Shown piece after piece: positions 9,175-29,549 of a DNA stretch of 42,918 bases. The translations under genes and the position numbers were made by a program. How positions within the stretch are numbered: the stretch's first letter is position 1; each line of letters opens with the position of its first letter. The stretch comes from Chloroflexota bacterium. Its GTDB lineage: Bacteria > Chloroflexota > Limnocylindria > P2-11E. The stretch spans positions 1 through 42,918 of the forward strand of contig VBFI01000060.1 of the NCBI GenBank assembly GCA_005889275.1, written 5' to 3'. Under the pieces are notes generated by a model that was given only the letters and a program-made list of their open reading frames with translations, was not told the origin of the DNA and searched no databases.

Positions 9175-9188
9175 GTCAACGCTACGGC

Positions 9189-9260
9189 GACCCCGGCGCG
9201 ACTCGAACGCGCGACTTCTTCCTTCGTAGGGAAGCGCTCTATCCACTGAGCTACGGGGTC
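9189..9260 (-). tRNA. tRNA-Arg (anticodon ACG)
   Basis: 72-nt cloverleaf read by hand: 7-bp acceptor gaccccg/cggggtc, anticodon loop CTACGAA, T-loop TTCGAGT; no encoded CCA. Confidence 0.95.
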
Positions 9261-10309: not shown

Positions 10310-10380
10310 GACCCCGTAGCTCAGCGGATAGAGCAGCGGACTTCGAATCCGTGTGCGAGAGTTCGATTCTCTCCGGGGTC
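10310..10380 (+). tRNA. tRNA-Arg (anticodon TCG)
   Basis: 71-nt cloverleaf: gaccccg/cggggtc acceptor, anticodon loop CTTCGAA, T-arm gagagTTCGATTctctc. Confidence 0.94.
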
Positions 10381-10385
10381 GCCGG

Positions 10386-23811: not shown

Positions 23812-24690
23812 ATGCTCGAACAGGTCTACAACGCGATCTTCATCGGCAGCATCTACGCGCTCTTCGCGGTCGGCTTCGCGCTCGTGTTCAGTGTCCTGGA
23901 CATCCTGAACCTCGCCCATCCGACGGTCTTCATGCTCGGCGCATTCGTCGCGCTCTTCGCGATCGCGACTCTCGGCCTCCCCTGGTACGTCGCGATCGTG
24001 TTGGCGTTCGTCGCGACGGGACTCTTCGGGATCCTTCTCGACCGCATCGCGTTCGCGCCGCTGCGACGACGCGGCGCGCCACAGCTCTCGACGATGATCT
24101 CGAGCATCGCCGTGACCCTGGTCGTGGTCCGGCTCGTCGAGCTTCGCTACGGCGGTGACTTCATCACGTTCCCCCGCGGGACGGTCCCGTCCTTCCTGAT
24201 TCAGATCGGCGACGCCACCCTCGAAGGGATTCGCGTCGTGATCATCGCGACCGCCCTCGTGCTCATGGCGGGCCTCACGTACCTCATCCGCTCGACCTCG
24301 ATCGGTCGGGACATTCGCGCGCTCGCCGAGAACCCGCGCGCGGCGCGGATCCTGGGAGTCGACATCGAGCGGGCGGTCGCGGCTACGTTCTTCGTCTCGT
24401 CGGGTCTCGGCGGCCTGGCGGGAGCGCTCCTCGCGTTCGCTTACGACTCGCTCGACTCAAAGATGGGCCTCTCGCTCGAGCTCCGCGCGTTCACGGTCAT
24501 GGTCGTCGGCGGCATGGGCAGCCTCCCGGGCGCGGTGATCGGCGCGTACGTGCTCGCGTTCGGTGAGGTCGGCAGCCTCGTCTATCTCCCGGCCGAGCTG
24601 CGCGACGCGTTCGCCTTCGGTCTCCTCTTCCTCGTGCTCATCGCGCGGCCGACCGGGCTTCTCGGTCAGCGGAACGCGGACCGCGTCTGA
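23812..24690 (+). CDS. livH: Branched-chain amino-acid-type ABC transporter permease
   Basis: IFIGSIYALFAVGFALVFSVLDILNLAHPTVFMLGAFVA...NPRAARILGVDIERAVAATFFVSSGLGGLAGALLA. Confidence 0.92.
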   Translation: MLEQVYNAIFIGSIYALFAVGFALVFSVLDILNLAHPTVFMLGAFVALFAIATLGLPWYVAIVLAFVATGLFGILLDRIAFAPLRRRGAPQLSTMISSIAVTLVVVRLVELRYGGDFITFPRGTVPSFLIQIGDATLEGIRVVIIATALVLMAGLTYLIRSTSIGRDIRALAENPRAARILGVDIERAVAATFFVSSGLGGLAGALLAFAYDSLDSKMGLSLELRAFTVMVVGGMGSLPGAVIGAYVLAFGEVGSLVYLPAELRDAFAFGLLFLVLIARPTGLLGQRNADRV

Positions 24691-24692
24691 AC

Positions 24693-25393
24693 GTGGACGC
24701 GATCGCGGACTTCCTCTCGGCCTATTCGACGCTCATCGCGCTCGTCGGCGTGAACGCGCTCCTCGCGCTCTCCGTGTGGATCACGCTCTACGCGGGCCAG
24801 CTCACGCTCGGCAACGCCGCGTTCATGGGGATCGGCGCGTATGTCTCCGCCCTGCTCGGCCGGCACCTCGGGATGCCGTTCCCGCTCGCGCTCGGCCTCG
24901 GCGCTCTCGCGGCGGGGGTGCTGGCGGTCCCGCTCGGCCTCACCGTGTTCCGGCTGCGCGGTGTGTACCTGGCCATCGCCACGCTCGCGTTCGGAGAGAG
25001 GACGAGAGCGCCGCGGCGAGCCAGGGGATCGCGATCCGCCGCTACAAGCTGGGGGCGTTCGTCGCCGGGGCGCTCATCGCGGCGTGGGCCGGCGGCCTCT
25101 CGGCCCATGTCACCTTCTCGATCGACCCGAACGACTTCGCGTTCTCGAAGGCGGTGCAGATCCTGGTGTTCGCCGTCGTCGGCGGTCTTCCGAACGTGGC
25201 CGGCCCGATCCTCGGGGCGGCGCTCCTCACGGCGCTCCCCGAGATCCTGCGGCCGCTCAAGGATTACCGCGACATCTTCCAGGGCGCGATCCTGCTGTTC
25301 GTGATCATCTTCCTGCCCCGCGGGCTCGTCACCGTCGCGCAGCTGCGGCGCACGCGACGTCTGCAGAAGATCGGGGCCGCCGATGTTGCTTGA
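24693..25393 (+). pseudogene. livM: LivM-type permease, interrupted by a frame change and apparent internal deletion near 24995-25003
   Basis: Frame A gives ...RGVYLAIATLAFGE; frame B gives REDESAAASQGIAIRRYKLGAFVAGALIAAWAGGLSAHVTF...; the normally intervening segment is absent. Confidence 0.85.
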
Positions 25394-26138
25394 GACTCTG
25401 GGCCTCTCGCGATCGTTCGGTGGAGTCCGAGCGGTCGCGGGCGTCGATCTCGTGATCGCGCCGGCGCAGGTCTTCGGGCTGATCGGCCCCAACGGTGCGG
25501 GCAAGACGACGTTCGTCAACATCGTCTCCGGCCACCTCCGCCCGGACGCCGGAACGGTCCACTTCGCGCAGGGCGACGTCACGGGGCTCGCCCCGCACGT
25601 CCTCGCCCGCCTTGGCATCGCGAGGACCTTCCAGGGCGTGCGTCTTTTCAAAGGACTCACCGTCCTCGAGAACGTCCTCGTCGGCCGGCACGCGCGGATG
25701 CGCCCCGACGCGCTCCGGCGCCTCTGGCCCCGAGGCGCTCCCGATCTCGCCGACCGCGAGATCGCCCGGTCGCTGCTCGATCGCATGGGGCTCGCCGCCC
25801 GCGCCGGCGCGCTCGCCGGCGAGCTCGCGTACGGCGACCAGCGGCGCCTGGAGATCGCGCGGGCCCTTGCCTCCGAGCCAAGGCTCCTCATCCTCGACGA
25901 GCCCGCGGCGGGGATGAACCCGGCCGAAAGCAGCGGGCTGCGCGGGCTCATGCGCGACCTCGCCCTAAACGGCCTCACGATCCTGCTCATCGAGCACGAC
26001 GTACGGCTCGTGATGGGGGCCTGCGACCGCGTCGCGGTGCTCAATTTCGGTCGCAAGATCGCCGAGGGTACGCCGGCCGAGGTGCAGCGAAATCCCGCGG
26101 TGCGCGAGGCCTACCTCGGCGCCGAGGACGTCGCGTGA
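25383..26138 (+). CDS. livG: Branched-chain amino-acid-type ABC transporter ATPase
   Basis: GPNGAGKTTFVNIVSG, GIARTFQGVRLFKGLTVLENVLVGRH, LLILDEPAAGMNPAE. Confidence 0.93.
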   Translation: MLLETLGLSRSFGGVRAVAGVDLVIAPAQVFGLIGPNGAGKTTFVNIVSGHLRPDAGTVHFAQGDVTGLAPHVLARLGIARTFQGVRLFKGLTVLENVLVGRHARMRPDALRRLWPRGAPDLADREIARSLLDRMGLAARAGALAGELAYGDQRRLEIARALASEPRLLILDEPAAGMNPAESSGLRGLMRDLALNGLTILLIEHDVRLVMGACDRVAVLNFGRKIAEGTPAEVQRNPAVREAYLGAEDVA

Positions 26139-26833
26139 CCACGATGCTCGAGATCGCGGACCTGTATATCCGTTACGGCGCGGTCGAGGCCGTGCATGGG
26201 ATCTCCTTCGCGGTCGCGCAGGGCGAGGTCACCGCGCTCATCGGTGCGAACGGTGCGGGCAAGTCCAGCACCCTCGCGGCGATCAGCGGCCTCGTCGCCG
26301 CCGCCGGGAGCATTCGCTTCGTCGGGCGTGACATCCGGGGAATGCCGCCGCACGAGATCGTCCGTGCCGGGATCGTTCAGGTGCCGGAGGGTCGCGAGAT
26401 CCTCGCGCGGATGACCGTCGAGGAGAACCTGCTCCTGGGCGCGCGGGGACGGGACGCCCGCGGGCTGCGATCGGCGTACGAGCGCTTCCCGATACTCGCC
26501 GAGCGGCGCTCGCTCCTCGCGGGCATGCTCTCGGGCGGCGAGCAGCAGATGCTCGCCATCGCGCGCGCGCTGCTCGCCGCGCCGCGGCTGCTCCTCCTCG
26601 ACGAACCGTCCCTCGGGCTCGCGCCGATCGTGGTCGCGCGCGTCTTCGAGACGCTCGCCGATCTGCGGCGGCAGGGGACCACCATGCTCCTCGTGGAACA
26701 GAACGCCCTTCGCGCGCTCCGCCTCGCCGACCACGCCCACGTCATGGAGCTCGGGCGAATCGTGATGTCCGGCACGGGCGCGGCGCTGCTTCGCGACGAA
26801 GCGGTGGCGCGGACCTACCTCGGCGTCGCCTAG
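26135..26833 (+). CDS. livF: Branched-chain amino-acid-type ABC transporter ATPase
   Basis: GANGAGKSSTLAAISG, VPEGREILARMTVEENLLLGA, LLLLDEPSLGLAPIVV. Confidence 0.93.
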   Translation: MTTMLEIADLYIRYGAVEAVHGISFAVAQGEVTALIGANGAGKSSTLAAISGLVAAAGSIRFVGRDIRGMPPHEIVRAGIVQVPEGREILARMTVEENLLLGARGRDARGLRSAYERFPILAERRSLLAGMLSGGEQQMLAIARALLAAPRLLLLDEPSLGLAPIVVARVFETLADLRRQGTTMLLVEQNALRALRLADHAHVMELGRIVMSGTGAALLRDEAVARTYLGVA

Positions 26834-27714
26834 TCGGGCTCGAGCACCTCGGTCGCGGCCGGGTACGTTCCGAGCTGCTGGATCCACTCGCAGCACGTGC
26901 GCATGAGCGCGAGCGCCTCGCGGGCCGGCCACTTGTTCGGGTCGCCCTCGAAGTCGAGATAGAAAACGTAGTCCCAGGGAGCCGCGCGGCTGGGGCGCGA
27001 CTCGATCTTGCTCAGCTGGATCCACGCCGTGGCGAACGGCTGGAGCGAACGGACGAGGCTGCCCGGAAGGTTCGCGGCCTTGTACACCAGACTCGTCTTG
27101 AGAGAGCCCTTGCGGAGCGACGCCGGGATCTGCTCCGCGACCCTCGCGTCCCCATCCCGGGCGAGGGCGAAGAACCTCGTGAAGTTGTCGCGCGAGGTCT
27201 CGATCGACTCGGCGAGGATGTCCAAGCCGTACCGCGCCGCCGCGCGGCGGCTCGCGACCGCGGCGACCTCCGGGTCCGCCGCCGCGGCCACCTCCGCCGC
27301 GGCGCCGGCCGTGTCGAAGGCGACGTCTGGCCGGATCGCGTGCGTGCTCAGGAATTCCTCGACCTGCGCGAGCGCCTGAGGGTGGGATCGCGCGATGCGA
27401 ACCCCCTCGAGTCGCGCTCCGGTTACCCCGAGCAGCGAGTGGCGCACTCGCAGGATGAGCTCGCCGATGACCTTCGCGCGCTCGTGATGGCGGAGCAGGT
27501 CGTAGACGTCGGCGACCGAACCAGCGTGGGTGTTTTCGACCGGAACCACGGCCGCGCTCACTTCGTCGGCCTCGAGAGCCGCGAATACCTCGGCGAACGT
27601 CCGTCGCGGGATGAGCGCGGCGCCCGGAAAGAGCGCGGCCGCGGCGGCCTCGGAGAACGCGCCGGCGAGACCCTGGTAGGCGACCTGGCTCAGCGGTACA
27701 CCGCCGTGCGCCAC
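26830..27714 (-). CDS. pheA: Prephenate dehydratase with C-terminal ACT domain
   Basis: VAYQGLAGAFSEAAAAALF..., VPVENTHAGSVADVYDLL, ETSRDNFTRFFALAR, ACT: KTSLVYKAANLPGSLVRSLQPFATAWIQLSKIESRPSRAAPWDYVFYLDFEG. Confidence 0.93.
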   Translation of the reverse strand: MAHGGVPLSQVAYQGLAGAFSEAAAAALFPGAALIPRRTFAEVFAALEADEVSAAVVPVENTHAGSVADVYDLLRHHERAKVIGELILRVRHSLLGVTGARLEGVRIARSHPQALAQVEEFLSTHAIRPDVAFDTAGAAAEVAAAADPEVAAVASRRAAARYGLDILAESIETSRDNFTRFFALARDGDARVAEQIPASLRKGSLKTSLVYKAANLPGSLVRSLQPFATAWIQLSKIESRPSRAAPWDYVFYLDFEGDPNKWPAREALALMRTCCEWIQQLGTYPAATEVLEPD

Positions 27715-28661
27715 TCCGCGTGGCTCTTGTCGTCCCCGCGCGCGATCGCGAAGTAGAGGTCGCCGATCCGCTTGGCGATCGGGCCGATCGCCCCGTCGCC
27801 AACCGGTCGCCGGTCGATCTCGACGCACGGCGCGACCTGCGCGCCCGTTCCACAGAAGAACACCTCGTCCGCGACGTAGAGCTCGGTCCGGTCGATGACT
27901 CGCTCCTCTGTGGGGATCCCAAGCTCCTTTGCGAGCGTGAGGATCGATTCGCGCGTCACGCCTTCGAGGATGTCCGCGGTGACCGGCGGAGTCGTGAGGA
28001 CACCCTCGCGGACCATGAAGACGTTGGCACCGCCGCCCTCCGACACATGACCGTCGGCCGTGAGGAAGATCGCCTCGTCGGCTTCGTAGTCGTGCGCCTC
28101 GTCGACCGCGAGGGCGGTGTTGATGTACGCCCCGGTGAGCTTGCCGCGCGCCGGGATCGCGTCGTCGGCCGTTCGCCGCCAGCTGGAAGTCCGCGCCGCG
28201 AGGCCGCCGGTCGGGAGATACGCGCCCAGCGGAAACGCGTAGATGCCGAAGCCGTCGCGCAGACCTCGAAGCGCGACCTTCACGGACCGCGCGGCCTTGA
28301 ACGCGAGCGGTCGAACGTAGACGTCATTTCTGAAGCCGTTCTTTCGCAGAAGCTCGAGGGTCAGCTTCACGAGGCCCTCCGCATCGGCCGGGAGCGTGAC
28401 TCGGAGGATCCGGACGGAGCGCCCCATGCGCTCGTAGTGCTCGCGCAGCCTGAACACGTAGAGCTGCTCCTGCGCCGGATTCCAGTACGCGCGGATTCCT
28501 TCGAACACGCCGGTGCCGTACTGGAGCGCGTGGGTCGCGAGGGACACCTTCGCTTCCGCCATGGGGACGAAGGCGCCGTCGAGGTATGCGATGCCGGTCT
28601 CGGCGATCTCCTGACCGACCGCCGCCACTTCCTTGAGCCGTTGCTCGACCGTGCTCGCCAT
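27690..28661 (-). CDS. ilvE: Branched-chain amino acid aminotransferase
   Basis: AYLDGAFVPMAEAKVSLATHALQYGTGVFEGIRAYW, GKLTGAYINTALAVDEAHDYEADEAIFLTADGHVSEGGGANVF. Confidence 0.93.
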   Translation of the reverse strand: MASTVEQRLKEVAAVGQEIAETGIAYLDGAFVPMAEAKVSLATHALQYGTGVFEGIRAYWNPAQEQLYVFRLREHYERMGRSVRILRVTLPADAEGLVKLTLELLRKNGFRNDVYVRPLAFKAARSVKVALRGLRDGFGIYAFPLGAYLPTGGLAARTSSWRRTADDAIPARGKLTGAYINTALAVDEAHDYEADEAIFLTADGHVSEGGGANVFMVREGVLTTPPVTADILEGVTRESILTLAKELGIPTEERVIDRTELYVADEVFFCGTGAQVAPCVEIDRRPVGDGAIGPIAKRIGDLYFAIARGDDKSHAEWRTAVYR

Positions 28662-28678
28662 CGCGCACCTCCAACAAA

Positions 28679-28702
28679 GAAGCCTCCCATCCGGGAGGCT
28701 TC
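28679..28702 (-). terminator. Intrinsic terminator (attenuator) in the ilvE leader
   Basis: Minus strand GAAGCCTCCC-ggat-GGGAGGCTTC-tttgtt: 10-bp perfect stem with U-rich tail. Confidence 0.8.
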
Positions 28703-28725
28703 GCGCCGCTGGTCGTCAGTTCGTG

Positions 28726-28800
28726 TTAGCCGCGCACGCCTCCGTCGCGAGCTCCCGCAAGGAGCTCGCTGAAAATGACGACGACGATCGAGCGCCGCAT
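28726..28800 (-). CDS. 24-aa leader peptide MRRSIVVVIFSELLAGARDGGVRG
   Basis: ATG...TAA ORF with an Ile-Val-Val-Val-Ile-Phe run and Leu-Leu, between promoter and terminator upstream of ilvE. Confidence 0.78.
   Translation of the reverse strand: MRRSIVVVIFSELLAGARDGGVRG
28747..28769 (-). promoter_or_regulatory. Leader hairpin (attenuator arms 1:2) overlapping leader-peptide codons
   Basis: Minus strand GCGAGCTCC-ttgcg-GGAGCTCGC, 9-bp perfect stem. Confidence 0.75.
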
Positions 28801-28810
28801 GCAACGACGA

Positions 28811-28839
28811 ACGGTACGGGCTGCGCCGCGGCCGGTCAA
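28811..28839 (-). promoter_or_regulatory. Promoter for the ilvE leader: TTGACC - 17 nt - TACCGT
   Basis: Minus strand -35-like hexamer 28834-28839 and -10-like hexamer 28811-28816, 17-bp spacer, 10 nt before the leader ATG. Confidence 0.65.
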
Positions 28840-28841
28840 GG

Positions 28842-29549
28842 TCAGATGCGGCCGATCACTTCGCCGCGCTGCCACACCCGTCGCGCGATCTCGAGCGCGC
28901 CGACGTCGAAGAACACAAGGAGCACGCCCACCGCGACGAGCGCCCACCCATCCGCGAGCTGGGACGCGACGACACCGAGACCGCCGAAGACCGCCGCGGA
29001 TATCGCGATGACCAGCCCGGCGAGCTGCTGCGCCGCGCGACTGGACCGCACGCGCGCCGCGACGATCATGGTGACGCTCCCGGTCGTGACGAGGTAGAGA
29101 AGCGACAACACGAGCAGCGCGTAGATGAGCTGCGGCGTGAGCGTATGCGCGATGCGCTCCGCGCCGTACCGGTAGCTCGCGAGGGCGTACGCGGCGGCGA
29201 GGGTGACGGCGCACGCGGCCAGTACCGGCGCGACCATGCCGATGAGCTTACCGAGGACGATGTCGAAGTCACGGATCGGCGCCGCGAGCAGCGGCACGAG
29301 CGTCCCGTTCTCCTTCTCCGCGGTGAACGTGGCGGCGATGAGCGACACACCGGCGAGGGACGGGAAGAAGACGCTCTGCAGCGCGAGTGCGACGATCGTG
29401 GCTTCCCCCGCCTGTCCGCCAGGGAGGCCGCGGTTCCCGAACACGAAAAAGATCGGGATGACCACGAAGATCGCGGTCCGCAGGAGCGACGCCCGGTCGA
29501 GGAAGACCTCCCAGCGGATCTCCCGCCAGGCGATGAGCCACCATTTCAC
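28842..29549 (-). CDS. ABC-2-type transporter permease
   Basis: Six-TM-like, AWREIRWEVFLDRASLLRTAIFVVIPIFFVFG, FTAEKENGTLVPLLAAPIRDFDIVLGKLIG; overlaps ATPase. Confidence 0.85.
   Translation of the reverse strand: MKWWLIAWREIRWEVFLDRASLLRTAIFVVIPIFFVFGNRGLPGGQAGEATIVALALQSVFFPSLAGVSLIAATFTAEKENGTLVPLLAAPIRDFDIVLGKLIGMVAPVLAACAVTLAAAYALASYRYGAERIAHTLTPQLIYALLVLSLLYLVTTGSVTMIVAARVRSSRAAQQLAGLVIAISAAVFGGLGVVASQLADGWALVAVGVLLVFFDVGALEIARRVWQRGEVIGRI

Follow-up and report, generated by a model that had tools for sequence, protein, structure and literature searches.

The enterobacterial ilv, leu, phe, his and thr leaders (Rfam families) each combine a short ORF, rich in codons for the amino acid produced by the operon and specific to it, with an antiterminator and an intrinsic terminator that are mutually exclusive. 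Leader peptides have been described in Proteobacteria, in Actinobacteria (PMC1262725, PMC10272879, PMC11857589) and in some Firmicutes (PMC2965389, PMC5794164, PMC5864092): a 2010 survey could list such systems for no phyla other than Proteobacteria and Actinobacteria, to which it added one Firmicutes case (PMC2965389), and further Firmicutes cases came later (PMC5794164, PMC5864092). Three of the described groups are close to the element presented here. The Corynebacterium ilvBNC leader (PMC10272879, PMC11857589) has an Ile/Leu/Val (ILV) leader peptide ahead of a branched-chain amino acid (BCAA) gene, together with hairpins and a terminator, and leaderless initiation has been discussed for the C. 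glutamicum ilv leader (PMC11857589). The actinobacterial trp, ilvB and cys leaders (PMC1262725) are attenuators outside Proteobacteria that were predicted comparatively, Cys leaders included. In bacilli, a leader with His codons lies upstream of hisZ and a hisS paralog (PMC2965389). We found in the open-access literature no report of the set of attenuators described below, nor of any described attenuator in Chloroflexi.

The window, i.e. the whole stretch of DNA analysed (contig VBFI01000060.1 of a Chloroflexota bacterium, 42,918 nt), carries on its minus strand, from 28839 to 28661, an arrangement of the same kind (Table 1). Judged from sequence analysis, it would be a ribosome-mediated transcription attenuator for ilvE-pheA, a reading to which we give a probability of about 0.9. 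The promoter, the 24-codon leader ORF, the hairpin, the GGAGGC segment, the terminator, the Shine-Dalgarno (SD) sequence and ilvE were all recovered from the sequence at exactly the coordinates of the original prediction. The two promoter hexamers are 17 nt apart and 10 nt separate TACCGT from the leader ATG (28800-28798); the leader ORF has no SD and its predicted 5' UTR is only a few nt long. The sides of the hairpin within the ORF are called A and B, the GGAGGC segment C, and the two sides of the terminator D and E. Folding gave -20.3 kcal/mol for the intrinsic terminator; the 142-nt minus-strand RNA, at -69.7 kcal/mol, was more stable than its dinucleotide shuffles (-59.5 ± 4.0 kcal/mol, z = -2.55), in keeping with the folded leader RNA first proposed. 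The ilvE start codon is an ATG at 28661, and pheA follows ilvE in 15 of the 16 loci checked. Upstream of the attenuator, and on the same strand, an ABC-2 type permease-like gene stops at 28842. Elsewhere in the window, ORFs whose translations resemble a branched-chain amino-acid ABC transporter (LivH/M/G/F-like) occupy 23812-26833 of the plus strand, convergent with ilvE-pheA, and two tRNA genes were detected with Rfam at 9188-9260 (-) and 10310-10381 (+).

Table 1. Features of the ilvE-pheA attenuator and its operon in the window
Feature	Position	Strand	Basis
-35 hexamer TTGACC	28834..28839	-	sequence; TTGAC kept with 17-nt spacer in ilvE orthologs
-10 hexamer TACCGT	28811..28816	-	sequence; conserved; TAGCGT in most relatives
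Leader peptide ORF, 24 codons, MRRSIVVVIFSELLAGARDGGVRG, stop TAA	28726..28800	-	sequence; frame-specific ILVFM enrichment
Hairpin A:B within leader ORF, GCGAGCTCC...GGGAGCTCGC	28747..28769	-	sequence, folding
Arm C GGAGGC, antiterminator 5' arm	28738..28743	-	invariant in 12 ilvE leaders; stalled-state folds; flank covariation
Arm D GAAGCCTCCCG, terminator 5' arm = antiterminator 3' arm	28692..28702	-	sequence, folding, conservation
Arm E GGGAGGCTTC and T-rich tail TTTGTT, intrinsic terminator	28673..28688	-	sequence, folding
Terminator stem, 10 bp, GC-rich, GAAGCCTCCC-GGAT-GGGAGGCTTC, then TTTGTT	28702-28679	-	sequence
Shine-Dalgarno GGAGG of ilvE	28668..28672	-	sequence
ilvE, branched-chain-amino-acid transaminase	27690..28661	-	TIGR01122, 313.9 bits (cut-off 245.55)
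pheA, prephenate dehydratase, adjacent to or overlapping ilvE	about 26830..27700	-	PRK11898, 220 bits (cut-off 219)

The original prediction depended on its upstream ORF and competing arms being conserved in related genomes. Among ilvE orthologs drawn from whole genomes of relatives, the arrangement is kept in eight of ten further members of the genus, whose sequences are not independent of each other, and in four genomes of a second genus (L011, L012, L013 and L016); since the layout is conserved in relatives, a chance origin is excluded. Seven genomes of the genus (L002, L003, L004, L005, L008, L009 and L031) have it complete and directly alignable, and L010 has it too, its leader carrying a GC-rich, repeat-like insertion without loss of frame. 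At this last locus (G007:C34, 1254-1503), the insertion GGGGGGCGGAGCCCCC and a second, similar unit lie ahead of the hairpin and replace part of the Ile/Val run. The leader peptides are MRRSIVVVIFSELLAGARDGGVRG in the window, MRASIVIIIFSGLLAGAR and MRVSLIVVIFSELLAGARSGGARR in relatives, and MARSVFFVIVIELPRGAGGGGALS in the second genus. All ilvE leaders lack an SD, and their ATG lies 8-10 nt (10 nt in most) from the -10 box; arms C (GGAGGC) and D (GCCTCCC) are invariant across 12 of them. The leader stop and the ilvE start are 64-86 nt apart, with a strong intrinsic terminator in between that is kept in every leader-bearing ortholog. The ilvE leader is not universal in the genus: L006 (G006:C298) keeps promoter and terminator with the leader between them deleted, possibly through an assembly error, and L007 (G008:C146) has lost promoter, leader and terminator, ilvE-pheA being retained in both. 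At two loci of other genera (L014 and L015) ilvE lies directly behind another gene, which in L014 is a PucR-like regulator with an attenuator of its own upstream. No such leader was seen at the paralogous ilvE copies L032-L036, nor at those ilvE copies from other families of the class that were inspected.

The original prediction had also pointed to a covariance search of related upstream regions, and this recovered a lineage-wide set. A covariance model built from 12 ilvE leaders (R1) gave many further matches in the family; a second one, built from 37 diverse elements (R2), matched, at E <= 1e-5, 27 of the order's 29 genomes and not one of 92 drawn from the rest of the class, these genomes being fragmentary assemblies and the relatives among them not independent. 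Both models include the leader region and so favour similar leaders, whereas a pattern made of arms C, D and E alone, with no leader content, does not. This arms-only pattern had 60 matches in 28 genomes of the family against three for the reversed pattern used as control, and 12 matches against 12 control matches in 122 genomes sampled from the other families of the class; the one genome representing a sister family in the order had two good matches. The covariance model and the arms-only pattern together yielded about 88 related attenuators of the same build in one order, the 88 distinct elements being those obtained when leader ORFs were picked solely by promoter score and a stop codon near C. 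Five weak model matches (L193, L195, L155, L156 and L207) were discarded as not being attenuators. Within the genome that the window comes from, ilvE, threonine synthase (C68) and a PucR-like regulator (C132) are clearly matched, and glutamate synthase (C24) is among the weaker matches.

According to NCBIfam and Pfam, the genes downstream of these elements code for acetolactate synthase, a TPP enzyme of that superfamily, threonine synthase, the regulatory subunit of ATP phosphoribosyltransferase, a class I/II aminotransferase, 2-isopropylmalate synthase, aspartokinase, PucR-type helix-turn-helix regulators and DAHP synthase (L088, a match of model R1); aspartate-semialdehyde dehydrogenase and glutamate synthase were assigned by their sequences alone. 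Two loci, L086 (G026:C212) and L083 (G020:C95), are amino-acid gene clusters with attenuators in a row, one per unit: a PucR-like gene with a Cys leader (in L086), thrC, a PucR-like gene with an ILV leader, and a TPP enzyme-ilvC-leuA operon. Behind the ILV attenuators of L069, L071, L073, L075, L076, L080, L083 and L086, which represent several species of two genera, the PucR-like gene apparently starts with ACG after a GGAGG-like site; it has an ATG in L085, and the ACG found elsewhere is a possible conserved rare start codon.

Across the 88 elements the leader start codon lies 6-12 nt (mostly 7-10 nt) from the -10 box, and an SD-like 4-mer precedes it in only two, which leaves 86 with an SD-less start. 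From the short distance and the lack of an SD we conclude that the leader is probably carried by a near-leaderless message, its ORF being probably translated from a putative 5' end a few nt before the ATG.

The original prediction saw in the window the classical 1:2 / 2:3 / 3:4 architecture, with two segments, CGGGAG in arm B and GGAGGC, complementary to the terminator arm. Pairing in the stalled state was examined by folding each of 13 ortholog RNAs, truncated after D, with the edge of the ribosome placed at codon 12. The probability of C:D pairing was 0.5-1.0 in 12 of the 13 (0.65-1.0 in 11) and about 0.8 in the window; it dropped to zero, with D free, once the ribosome was past C. L010, with its leader insertion, showed no C:D pairing. 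In L009 pairing was split between C:D and B:D, and in L002 and L013 B:D replaced C:D when the stall edge was moved to codon 14. The pairing of CGGGAG with CTCCCG was rejected as the main antiterminator: its probability in the window is 0.00-0.01 and the segment is missing from the divergent L016, where A:B is replaced by a hairpin of different sequence, unable to pair with D. The antiterminator arm is thus C, for which the folds, the invariance in 12 leaders and the covariation of the flanks (see below) agree with the complementarity to GCCTCC first noticed, and A:B is a separate hairpin. A:B is conserved (mean z of -2.15 in the ilvE leaders) yet excludes arm C, and on the MAFFT alignment its covariation is no higher than in shuffles; it is most likely a pause hairpin. 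Of the proposed architecture, the competition of antiterminator and terminator for arm D stands, but the first hairpin of the window does not hide GGAGGC.

How, then, is C withheld from D in the off-state? Measured from the start of C, the leader stop codon begins at positions from -2 to +21 in all 88 elements, within a range of -12 to +40 permitted by the search. Since the stop codon sits at arm C, a ribosome finishing the leader would cover C, and the off-state is best explained, by the simplest route, by such a ribosome masking C. Species may differ in the state adopted when the leader is not translated. In the window the free transcript up to arm D already favours C:D (0.83), so untranslated RNA may read through rather than terminate; in L003, L008, L011, L012 and L013 C is contested by upstream parts of the leader, and the folds of some orthologs pair it with the leader's 5' end.

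The C:D pairing was also looked at through covariation. At the positions just 5' of GGGAGG in C and just 3' of CCTCCC in D, the two bases form the combinations C:G (35 elements), T:A (20), T:G (15) and C:A (3). Their association is significant over the 88 elements (Fisher, 8e-6) and when each gene class is represented once per genus (median p of 0.006, 95th percentile 0.04), these p-values being indicative only because the elements are related by descent. The next two flanking positions are also above shuffles, 6 and 3 of 2000 reaching the observed value. No such covariation was found between the D and E flanks in the same set of elements. Since the D flank lies in the terminator loop, its covariation with the C flank is independent evidence for the C:D pairing. 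In some elements of L149, L150, L151, L084, L067 and L107 the terminator shows a compensatory change, D reading CCTCTC and E GAGAGG.

Leader codons follow the gene: Ile, Val and Leu for ilvB (MNGRGLLPLLIVVLLEGTGRRLGG), Leu for leuA (MRRNLLALGLALLETARMRPGG), His for hisZ (MRHLHHTHSSTAPVSGLAVRPGG, and MTKLALARTHRHAHHAHGHAMGGA in another genus), Thr for aspartokinase (VTLSTRITVGTTTTTTEVEAS) and asd (MYRATTTANTATTRTEGGAS), and Cys for one PucR-like regulator (MLYRCAAMVMPEAHCTCVCAMGDHALGGSS); the DAHP synthase leader, read from the sequence by eye, is MRQCNWSAFAFTWLPEGAGFGEARR. His makes up 18% of hisZ leaders against 0-4% elsewhere, Cys 16% of the Cys set against at most 2% elsewhere, and Thr 41-50% of the asd and lysC leaders, of which one each was counted. 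At codons 3-13 of the ILV leaders, I, L, V, F and M account for 67% in frame against 14% and 8% in the other two frames. Compared with a sample of genes, the leaders prefer CTT as Leu codon (36% versus 7%) and ATT as Ile codon (22% versus 3%). Phe is present in 12 of 12 leaders ahead of pheA-containing operons and in three of 41 other ILV leaders; the sole ilvE leader without pheA in its operon, that of G022 (where pheA is elsewhere in the genome), has no Phe codon. The frame-specific enrichment and the way Phe tracks pheA bear out the match first proposed between the stall codons and the products of the operon (Ile/Val/Leu for ilvE, Phe for pheA).

One class is an exception to this correspondence. 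The threonine synthase leaders (e.g. L123, 519-648 (-), G000:C68) have a conserved core, IPPMPIAPMPG, rich in Ile, Met and Pro and not in Thr; Pro-Pro stalling or the sensing of Ile/Met is possible there. At the glutamate synthase (gltB) loci L194 (G000:C24), L199, L200, L202, L206 and L208, arms C, D and E are present together with a short ORF rich in Ala, Thr and Ser, whose peptide gives no clear amino acid; a recurring TTCCGCAAC lies upstream. We see about an even chance that one module (GGGAGG at the leader stop, a CCTCCC/GGGAGG terminator, an SD-less leader) was duplicated across the amino-acid operons of one order and re-coded codon by codon for different amino acids, down to the omission of Phe codons in operons without pheA. 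If this is true, much of amino-acid synthesis would be run by one RNA design.

The conservation in two genera, the frame-specific codons, the link between Phe and pheA and the antiterminator covariation lend strong support to the attenuator sensing Ile, Val, Leu and Phe that was originally predicted. Transcription would start a few nt before the leader ATG, and the 24 codons would be translated from an essentially leaderless message. With ample charged Ile, Val, Leu and Phe tRNAs, the ribosome should pass Ile5-Val-Val-Val-Ile-Phe10 and Leu13-Leu14 and reach the stop codon, where its footprint would mask arm C; D would then be free for E and transcription would terminate. If one of these tRNAs were uncharged, the ribosome would stall on codons 5-14 with arm C downstream of the stall, C would pair with D (GCCTCC) as soon as D was made, and, no terminator being formed, the polymerase would read into ilvE-pheA. 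The A:B hairpin would probably act as a pause hairpin, synchronising ribosome and polymerase.

Other explanations of the locus have to be weighed. The terminator lies closely behind a same-strand gene and could constitutively end read-through from this upstream ABC-transporter gene, the small ORF being a by-product and ilvE-pheA simply having a low expression, as the promoter and terminator kept without a leader in L006 might suggest. This is unlikely, given that a conserved promoter stands between the upstream gene and the terminator and that the hydrophobic frame, arm C and the match between leader and gene are conserved across genera and operons. The same frame-specific conservation and amino-acid matching require translation, which makes it highly improbable that the terminator is controlled by a tRNA- or metabolite-binding RNA with the ORF untranslated, even if in other phyla the usual alternative ahead of amino-acid genes is a T-box or riboswitch (PMC2965389). 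No Rfam family reached its gathering score in the region and no T-box was among the matches at E<=10; the best sub-threshold match was to the full-length Phe_leader model (RF01859; 23.5 bits for a gathering cut-off of 55, E 0.11).

A sensed leader could also have another output than termination, namely translational coupling or reinitiation at ilvE, since leader genes close to structural genes can act in this way (PMC4833913). The 64-86 nt between leader stop and ilvE start, occupied by a strong intrinsic terminator which every leader-bearing ortholog conserves, make this very unlikely, and ribosome-mediated termination control is the reading we retain.

With attenuation so understood, such elements appear to serve as a main amino-acid control in a lineage known from assembled genomes, the same RNA module standing ahead of some 10 kinds of genes. 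Comparison can now address how leader peptides change their amino-acid specificity, and how attenuation works without an SD at the leader. The leaders name the amino acid sensed and can help to tell what the PucR-like regulators and TPP enzymes encoded downstream do; the approximately 88 small ORFs, of a kind usually left unannotated, are probably real genes.

The principle is already known: it is that of the enterobacterial ilv, leu, his, thr and phe leaders. With respect to these, the leader ORF here is SD-less and begins almost directly after the promoter, the first hairpin does not contain the antiterminator arm, which is found instead at the leader stop codon, and one shared GGGAGG/CCTCCC module, for which no Rfam model reaches threshold, serves many operons. 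The Corynebacterium ilvBNC leader differs in gene, sequence and lineage, and no module shared by many operons is described there. The actinobacterial leaders (PMC1262725) concern few operons, with no obvious terminator for cys, whereas here the terminator is part of both the element and the search. The hisZ leader of bacilli, comparable to ours in its His codons and its place upstream of hisZ, belongs to Firmicutes, while the hisZ leaders found here are part of a larger set. What is new is the lineage, the single RNA module shared by many amino-acid operons, the position of the arm at the leader stop throughout and the SD-less start in 86 of 88 elements.
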